From Rhizobium sp. NXC24 (GTDB lineage: Bacteria; Pseudomonadota; Alphaproteobacteria; Rhizobiales; Rhizobiaceae): a stretch of 64,000 bases of DNA. The stretch's first letter is position 1. Each line of letters starts with the position of its first letter. Under the pieces are notes generated by a model. That model was not told the DNA's origin. It was given only the letters and a program-made list of their open reading frames with translations, and made no database searches. Where the stretch lies: assembly GCF_002944315.1 (NCBI RefSeq), contig NZ_CP024311.1, forward strand, positions 3,788,501 to 3,852,500, in the 5' to 3' direction. Positions 25,137-27,324 of the stretch are shown one piece after another. The position numbers and the translations under genes were made by a program.

Positions 25137-25852
25137 TATTCGGCTTCCGCCGGCGGATTGACCGTGTGCTTCATGATCAACGGCATTTGCGACAGGGTAA
25201 AGAGGATGGTGATCGGCATCGTACCCCAGACCTTGAACAGAACCCAAAGATTGTCCGCGGCTTTAACATCCGGCAGGTAATACCAGTTCGACCCACGCCA
25301 GACGATTTCATTGAGCACGGCGAGAAACAGGAAGAAGATGCCCCAGCGCATCGTGAGCTTGCGCCAGCCCTCGCTGTCCAACTGGAAGGCGGCGTTGAAG
25401 ACGTAGCCGAGCAGCGATCTGCCGAACGCGAGCCCGCCGAGCAGCACCACGCCAAACAGCGCGTTGATGATGGTCGGCTTCATCTTGATGAAGGTCTCGT
25501 TCTGCAAATAGATGCCGAGCGCGCCGAAAGTGACAACGACGATGCCGGAGACGAAGGGCATCAGCGGCAAATGGCCGAGCATGACCTTCGAGACGACAAG
25601 CGAGATCACCGTTGCCGCCATGAACAGGCCGGTGGCGACGAAGAGCGGACCACCGAGCGCTGCGAGCTGCGGAAAATGCTGCACCAGCCACTCGCCACGC
25701 AGATTGCCGAAAAAGAACACCAGCAGCGGCCCGAGTTCCAGCACCAGCTTCAGCATCGGATGATGCTTGTCGGCAGCACTTGGGGTGAGATCACTGTCGC
25801 TGGTCGTCATCGCGGCACTTTCACTATCATCGAATTTGGTCTTGTCGTTCAT
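25136..25852 (-). CDS. yciB: inner membrane-spanning protein YciB / septation protein A
   Basis: This is a 238-residue inner-membrane protein of the YciB/IspA family, linked to cell-envelope integrity and septation. Family features are [60 protein letters not shown] and the segment [19 protein letters not shown]. The N-terminus carries about 30 extra hydrophilic residues. The ATG at 25852 overlaps the ftsY stop in an ATGA, so the two are translationally coupled. Confidence 0.93.
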
Positions 25853-27324
25853 TGACTGATCCCGGCGATGGCCTGGGCAAAATCCTCGGCCTCGAACGGC
25901 TCGAGATCGTCTACACCCTCGCCGACACCGATGAAATAGACCGGCAGCTTGTGCTTGGCAGAGATGGCCACCAGAATGCCGCCGCGCGCCGTGCCGTCGA
26001 GCTTGGTCATGATCAGCCCGTTGACCCCTGCGATATTGCGGAAGATTTCCACCTGGTTCAATGCATTCTGGCCGGTGGTCGCATCTAGCGTCTGCAGCAC
26101 GGTATGGGGCGCGTCCGGATCGAGCTTGCCGAGCACGCGGACGATCTTTTCCAGCTCCGCCATCAGCTCCGCCTTGTTCTGCAGACGGCCGGCGGTGTCG
26201 ATGATCAGCACATCGCTCTTGCTGGCCTTAGCCTGCTGGAAGGCATCATAGGCAAGTCCGGCGGCGTCGGCACCGAGCTTGGTGCCGATGAATTCCGACT
26301 TGGTGCGGTCGGCCCAGATCTTCAACTGCTCGATCGCCGCGGCACGGAAGGTATCGCCGGCAGCCACCATGACCTTCAGCCCGGCACCGGACAGTTTCGA
26401 CGCCAGCTTGCCGATCGTCGTCGTCTTGCCGGTGCCGTTGACGCCGACGATGAGGATGACATGCGGCTTATGGCTGAGATCGAGCTGCAACGGCTTGGCG
26501 ACCGGCTTCAGCACCTTGGCGATTTCCTGCGCCATGATCCGGCTGACATCCTCGCCGGTCACATCCTTGCCGTAGCGTTCCGAGGCCAGCGTATCGGTGA
26601 CCCGCATCGCGGTCTCGACGCCAAGATCGGCCTGGATCAAGAGGTCTTCCAGATCCTGCAGGGTCTGGTCGTCGAGCTTGCGCTTGGTGAAAAGCGCCGT
26701 GATCTGGCCGGTGAGCTGCGACGAGGTGCGCGCAAGACCGGCGCGCAGGCGCTGGAACCAGGACAGCTTTTGCTTTGGAGCTTCGGGGGCTGGTACGGGG
26801 GCGTCGGCGGCGCTGGTGAAACCTTTGGGGAGGATGGGAGTGGCGACGGAAGTTTCGGTGCTTTCCGACGAGAACTCCGAACCGGCCGAAGCTTCGTTAC
26901 CCCCCTCTGTCCTGTCGGGCATCTCCCACTCAAGGGGGGAGATTGTTTCGGAGGCGGTCTCATCCAGTACATCACTGGCTTCGGTCGCGACAGGATACTC
27001 TGCTGACGAAGCTTCCTCGGCTTCGATCACCTGCGCATTCAGCTCAGCGCTAACGTCTGCTTGACGGTCAGTCTGCTCTTTTTGCTCCGGCGGCACGGCG
27101 TCCTCCAACCAATCTTCCCCCTTGAGGGGGAGATGACTCGTAGGGACAGAGGGGGGTAGCGCAGGTTCGGCAAACTCCGAAGCCGGTGAAACGTCCGCAG
27201 CAGGCAGTACTTCAGGCTCCGGAACGGTCGCTTCAACCTTCGGCAAAACCTCTTCCGGCGCCTGCTCTTCCGCCGACTTTTCGCGGCCGAAGGTGAAGAC
27301 TTTTTTGATGAAATTGAGCGCCAT
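25849..27324 (-). CDS. ftsY: signal recognition particle receptor FtsY
   Basis: FtsY is the SRP receptor GTPase that docks SRP-ribosome complexes at the membrane. The product is 491 residues. Residues 1-180 are an acidic, low-conservation A domain with a basic N-terminal patch. The N domain follows ([19 protein letters not shown]), then the G domain with [33 protein letters not shown] and [10 protein letters not shown]. The A domain contains two in-frame palindromic repeats (residues ~56-72 and ~127-143) described separately. The gene lies between mtaB and yciB in one operon. Confidence 0.97.
26898..26944. repeat. Palindromic repeat copy A inside ftsY
   Basis: This 47-base unit starts TACCCCCCTCTGTCC and ends with a CTC-AAGGGGGGAGATT arm. 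Its internal half is palindromic (ATCTCCC...GGGGGGAGAT). It is read in frame on the minus strand as FtsY residues ~127-143, [15 protein letters not shown]. Copy B is the same sequence in the opposite orientation. Confidence 0.8.
27111..27158. repeat. Palindromic repeat copy B inside ftsY
   Basis: This is the inverse-orientation copy of the repeat at 26898-26944. Its reverse complement also begins TACCCCCCTCTGTCC, and after a variable ~8-base spacer it shares CATCTCCC(A/C)CTCAAGGGGG and the final AGATT. It encodes FtsY residues ~56-72 ([17 protein letters not shown]). The two copies are 166 bases apart and could pair in the mRNA. Confidence 0.8.

Follow-up and report, generated by a model that had tools for sequence, protein, structure and literature searches.

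How does a repeat made of palindromes come to lie twice, once in each orientation, within the coding frame of a conserved protein, and what keeps it there? The question is raised by ftsY of Rhizobium sp. NXC24, which lies in the window analysed here (the whole stretch of DNA under study, 64,000 nucleotides). A preliminary description had reported two units of about 47 bases, 166 bases apart and in opposite orientation, both within the ftsY frame; direct reading confirms them, together with the two in-frame peptides at residues 56-72 and 127-143. Our reading, to which we give a probability of roughly 0.85, is that a composite element of the RIME type was inserted in frame in the A domain of FtsY and then inherited, its units being constrained as nucleic acid. 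The features concerned are the following:

25849 to 27324, minus strand: reading frame of ftsY (SRP receptor, 491 amino acids), matching TIGR00064 ftsY at 316.5 bits (cut-off 260.7); the A domain, residues 1 to about 190, contains the insertion, and the NG domain comes next
26898 to 27158, no strand: composite element, made of a unit, a spacer and a second unit inverted to the first, and translated within the ftsY frame
27111 to 27158, minus strand: first unit in the ftsY direction, residues 56-72, 55.6 bits with model R1
26898 to 26944, plus strand: second unit in the ftsY direction, inverted relative to the first, residues 127-143, 67.9 bits with model R1
26945 to 27110, no strand: spacer between the units, an acidic coding sequence that evolves fast (dS 1.05) and has many indels
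26885 to 26897, plus strand: outer flank belonging to a 28-nt inverted arm, from the inverted-arm search
27159 to 27171, minus strand: outer flank on the opposite side, its inverted partner, from the same search

Read directly, the plus-strand copy at 26898-26944 is TACCCCCCTCTGTCCTGTCGGGCATCTCCCACTCAAGGGGGGAGATT and the minus-strand copy at 27158-27111 is TACCCCCCTCTGTCCCTACGAGTCATCTCCCCCTCAAGGGGGAAGATT, one base longer. The unit that comes first in ftsY is made of an outer C tract, a small hairpin and a 9-bp hairpin, and hairpin 1 is partly decayed in NXC24. There are inverted arms of 29 nt with 90% complementarity and others of 28 nt with 89%, the latter including about 13 nt outside the units. 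The pattern CCCCCTCTGTCC, with at most one mismatch, has three matches in the 64-kb window against 0.19 expected, a count reached by none of 100 shuffles; the half pattern CTCAAGGGGGNAGAT, with at most two mismatches, is by itself not beyond chance (two matches in the window, and six shuffles reach two). The suggestion that the copies might pair in the mRNA as a long stem agrees with the predicted fold of 296 bases, which joins both units into a single long stem at -148.6 kcal/mol, against -102.2 +/- 4.9 in 200 shuffles (z -9.5). Rfam gave no family match at E up to 1.

Beyond this locus, the element is best read as two double-hairpin units inverted to each other; it is usually about 150 bp long and frequent between rhizobial genes. 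Its common layout in the stretches read is ACCCCCCTCTGTCCTGCCGGACATCTCCCCCACAAGGGGGGAGAT, a spacer, and the unit inverted. The first of the two hairpins shows coupled changes in intergenic copies (TGTCC/GGACA, TGCCC/GGGCA, TGGCC/GGCCA), and a second subtype, TGTCAC..GTGACA, predominates in the relative G087. Within the genus, 137 of the 148 genomes match the strict unit pattern. When a 276-base stretch was searched against annotated plasmids, 975 places on 178 records were returned, mainly from Sinorhizobium, Rhizobium and Shinella; the best 40 of these places comprise 10 in unannotated records, 29 without an annotated gene (the gene tables being incomplete) and one in ftsY. The genome G106 holds 116 units detected by the model, 86 of them in the 40 regions examined: according to a purpose-made simple codon-usage gene finder, 13 fall within called genes, 9 at their edges and 64 beyond them. 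Eight of these 13 are genuine (two in ftsY, two in ribD, four in cobN), and the other five, at 5' ends, look like early start calls. Forty inverted pairs, mostly 150-153 bases long, were found among 85 units of this genome. All six frames are free of stops in 84 of the 85, against 12% of mononucleotide shuffles, and a whole element has on average 4.0 open frames compared with 1.8 in shuffles. Terminal inverted repeats, as used to define MITEs, are present: the units are inverted, and their consensus extends about 14-16 bases past the C tract. No direct repeat that could be a target duplication stands beside the C/G tracts of 40 elements, these tracts not necessarily being the true ends, and none is found at the one orthologous intergenic site compared.

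The family has all but vanished from NXC24, whose ftsY units belong to the more decayed. The exact 12-mer occurs in ftsY only, BLAST of the genome gives no further match below E 0.5, and model R1 detects three units: apart from the ftsY pair, it finds only a half-unit of the other subtype, in decayed form (L185, G000:C1:797467-797517). Occurrence outside the gene, which the preliminary description had treated as a mark of a mobile repeat, is plain across rhizobia and reduced to this half-unit in NXC24 itself. Exactly one strict match is found in 42 other genomes of the 148, and when 30 of these were followed the lone match lay in ftsY in 27. That it is the only genomic copy holds for the strict pattern alone: scoring 150 of some 3000 first-look candidates per genome, the covariance model finds 6 to 54 units in most genomes with a single strict match, the further copies there being more divergent.

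We take this family to fit the RIME repeats of rhizobia, a name that reportedly stands for Rhizobium-specific intergenic mosaic elements and is said to go back to Osteras, Stanley and Finan in 1995. The accessible part of one source presents RIME as intergenic palindromic repeats of rhizobia (PMC2573895). The ftsY family is likewise dispersed, palindromic, mainly intergenic and present in several rhizobial genera, a likeness drawn from description and not from the RIME1 sequence; in contrast, the NXC24 copy lies inside ftsY, and further copies lie in the coding frames of conserved proteins. The comparison first offered was with the Rickettsia palindromic elements (RPE), which according to the portion of the source available are found in frame in 19 reading frames, with an active gmk product (PMC2229807). 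What RPE and their Wolbachia counterpart share with the ftsY element is in-frame palindromic insertion in genes of conserved proteins, and this part of the proposal is strengthened by the dispersal of the rhizobial repeat and by its clean entry in frame into RibD and CobN; the rhizobial carrier differs in being an inverted pair whose silent sites are frozen. A protein-model search (not an alignment of RPE DNA) found no RPE model of NCBIfam in NXC24 FtsY at E 0.001, and the comparison holds by behaviour, apparently not by descent. GTAG/CGTC REP dimers, in the accessible text on them, lie within genes of several species, including those for tRNA synthetases and repair (Di Nocera et al. 2013, PMC3733652), but the rhizobial unit consensus lacks a GTAG or CGTC tag at its end. 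A RAYT as mobilising enzyme is unsupported: of 12 genomes scanned, 3 have the RAYT-type transposase domain PF01797, and five copy-rich Rhizobium genomes (G105, G106, G072, G119, G126) lack it.

Which other proteins have received the element? As judged from alignments, it is inserted cleanly in frame in RibD and at three sites of CobN, relatives being empty at the same sites. Among 18 ribD genes of the same genus, six have the whole pair, two a shortened one and one a possible remnant, and nine are empty at the site. The CobN alignment comprised 15 proteins, namely L231 and others taken from the set in which an insert had already turned up. Sites 1 and 2 are filled in eight Rhizobium/Ensifer proteins and site 3 in seven Mesorhizobium-type proteins. 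Another frame (RPPLSCRTSPPQGG) is used at site 1 by four Mesorhizobium-type proteins, and two are empty there. Protein searches returned 179 matches for the RibD insert (120 listed), 114 for the CobN insert and 54 for the second reading frame. The 234 proteins listed from the RibD and CobN searches have both peptides in 229 cases and away from the ends in 227; these queries contained both peptides, and since the query fixes the frame, the searches are no test of frame preference. Named as in the sources, the hosts of the element peptide include RibD, CobN, FtsY, CobC, CobG, GluQRS, IspE, MutY, GlyS, an ApbE-like protein and ABC ATPases, with Pfam checked for ten and empty sites compared in two (RibD, CobN). 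N-terminal units in L205, L212, L227 and L233 were rejected as insertions, a known domain starting downstream of the units; their start codons were probably called too early, and for this reason the 26 of 54 second-frame proteins with N-terminal placement were not counted either. Small translatable repeats fused to genes are also known from the enterobacterial RU/ERIC, none of them in conserved domains in the accessible part of that report (Delihas 2007, PMC2759123). The rhizobial units are similarly open for translation and gene-fused, but their insertions interrupt the reductase domain of RibD, as well as CobN and others.

Some loci have a further short palindrome nested within the unit. This palindrome, translated as RGRATGLDPS in the genes, lies in frame in ribD (L248, L249) and ftsY (L048, L049, L133, L134) and, as part of an intergenic copy, between hutG and hutH in L295.

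The history of the ftsY site was followed in 82 genes: the best 80 of 194 loci, together with that of the window and an ftsY carried on a plasmid. Of these, 72 have one unit or more at a score of at least 15 bits, 67 have two or more, five a single one and ten none (L075, L076, L083, L092, L096, L097, L101, L104, L105, L107). Because 72 of the 82 carry at least one unit, the insertion is, on this sequence comparison, old and vertically inherited. The first-unit peptide is PPSVPSGHLPHKGGD in most ftsY genes and PPSVLPDISPTRGEI in others, a variant unit is read as PPTLPGVPPTGGG, and L099 has two pairs. These readings do not form one clade each in a weakly resolved tree of the NG domain, so that replacement or repeated insertion must have occurred at the site. 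An insertion origin is well supported; no close pair of empty and filled ftsY was found among the relatives examined, so that we infer the single insertion event and its target duplication, as we do the mobility of the element. The element would have entered the disordered, acidic A domain in frame in an ancestor of many Rhizobium species. Units free of stops in every frame and a flexible linker as the insertion site would explain why it was tolerated. The element would then have passed on vertically with ftsY, the spacer being remodelled like ordinary A-domain sequence and each unit staying near-frozen in its stems and outer C tract, at silent and replacement sites alike.

We measured this freezing in the clade of the window, using 28 ftsY genes (33 rows minus L048, L049, L054, L066 and L104, excluded for a nested insert, a missing start or distance). 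The two units have dS of 0.09 and 0.11, against 0.45 before them, 1.05 between them, 0.81 after them and 0.46 in the NG domain, and their dN/dS is 0.84 and 0.77 against 0.03 for NG. Low dS with dN/dS of about 0.8 means that the nucleotides are conserved and not the peptide, and the encoded peptides are, on this pattern of substitution, incidental. Identity at four-fold sites is 0.933 and 0.901, compared with 0.693 in NG; random NG draws reach these values in 0 of 20000 and in 0.025%, and the best of 289 NG windows attains 0.878. Relatives do carry the same residues at both sites, a point that had been named as telling against insertion, but the normal codon divergence expected with it is not found, dS being 0.09-0.11 against 0.46. 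In a second clade of 19 ftsY genes unit dS is 0.12 and 0.15 against 0.33 for NG, genes without both detectable units having been excluded, which favours conservation. RibD units give 0.10 and 0.19 against 0.50-0.55 (five genes, one frame-shifted gene excluded), and in an orthologous intergenic pair the units are more alike than their flanks. The RibD units being frozen as well, the cause would lie in the element rather than in ftsY in particular. Within the ftsY units, change falls mainly on loops and flanks, loops having 0.07-0.13 changes per site against 0.015-0.026 for stems and C tract. No two-sided local compensatory change occurs within the window's clade, and local compensation over the whole ftsY set is dominated by one pair differing between clades. 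The likeliest cause would be a constraint on the units as nucleic acid, whether as hairpin DNA or RNA or through a factor that recognises them.

Could the silent sites instead be kept alike by gene conversion from other genomic copies, and not by selection? We regard this as a real possibility, at clearly less than even odds. Conversion would also account for the frozen units of RibD and of the intergenic pair, and decay of the ftsY units tends to be further advanced in genomes with few copies, a weak link that we do not accept as copy number driving decay (rho -0.35, P 0.07, n=28, uncorrected for kinship). However, in the 27 genomes where ftsY is the sole strict match no copy with the ftsY inner hairpin is available as a donor: the other copies, where read, belong to the subtype with a different one, and the ftsY inner stem is still conserved at 0.015-0.025 changes per site. 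G096, moreover, has few other copies and yet intact units.

An unlikely account is that ftsY itself has co-opted the pair, as an mRNA or DNA structure that might tune expression or membrane targeting. The strong predicted stem and the frozen silent sites of the stems would suit it, but RibD units are equally frozen, 10 of the 82 ftsY genes lack units altogether while another 5 show just one, and the NXC24 copy is decaying; no need specific to ftsY is thus evident. Quite improbable, again, is the entry of two single units independently, in opposite orientation. At 199-261 bp the ftsY element exceeds the common length of 150-153 bp, and ftsY of L066, L099, L106, L085 and L095 has extra units or only one; against this, between genes the units normally occur as an inverted pair, the pair arrives jointly in RibD and CobN, and both peptides accompany each other in nearly all the proteins listed, with queries that held both. 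The two copies first described are both present, and we read them as one inverted-pair composite element, not as two unrelated copies. That a Pro/Gly-rich A domain, of low complexity and variable length, resembles the repeat by chance with no insertion at all is hardly conceivable in view of 47-base nucleotide identity with a dispersed family, the inverted pairing, the silent conservation and the in-frame copies in RibD and CobN.

Under the preferred reading of one inherited composite element, exchange between its two arms may assist the freezing. Identical changes in both ftsY arms number 9 against 1.97 expected, a value reached in 0 of 2000 within-clade permutations with kinship uncontrolled. 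Most of the coupling comes from one loop position; without one position the count is 4 against 1.29 (P 0.03), and restricting the test to the window's own clade leaves 2 against 0.5 (P 0.09). Two Rhizobium plasmids seem to differ in the orientation of the spacer at the intergenic hutG-hutH site: that of L290 resembles that of L028 more as reverse complement (0.705) than on the direct strand (0.517). This resemblance suggests that arms may exchange.

Protein-embedded palindromes are already known elsewhere, and the rhizobial case is apparently unreported: we found no report of the element within coding genes in the literature searched, a scope outside which most subscription papers lie. Insertions of repeats in conserved proteins have so far been seen mainly as a peculiarity of Rickettsia, with scattered cases elsewhere. 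We propose tentatively, at somewhat less than even odds, that units embedded in coding sequence stay under purifying selection at the nucleotide level and that rhizobia hold a palindromic class of this kind. If so, a single stretch of DNA would be both the frame of a host protein and a recognised nucleic-acid structure, and a cellular recognising factor would act on ftsY, ribD and cobN from inside their coding sequences. Rhizobia are cultivable and genetically tractable, the family enters essential and vitamin-pathway genes, and several CobN sites, different frames at the same site and insert-free relatives as controls are at hand. With silent sites frozen, the question of what reads such hairpins in the cell becomes directly approachable by silent recoding.

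Three observations may be added. The ftsY genes L128 (G045) and L139 (G083) have frame shifts in both units, at the G runs of the hairpins, in genomes whose relatives are intact; sequencing error and real change look the same in the assemblies. In Rhizobium sp. NLR16a an ftsY-mtaB-dapF block with its embedded element stands on a record named as a plasmid (L025, NZ_CP072868.1, plasmid p3). Finally, P0235, a hypothetical protein of 352 amino acids from Rhizobium halophytocola, looks as if it were built of repeats: it has four copies of the second-unit peptide, spaced 61 residues apart.
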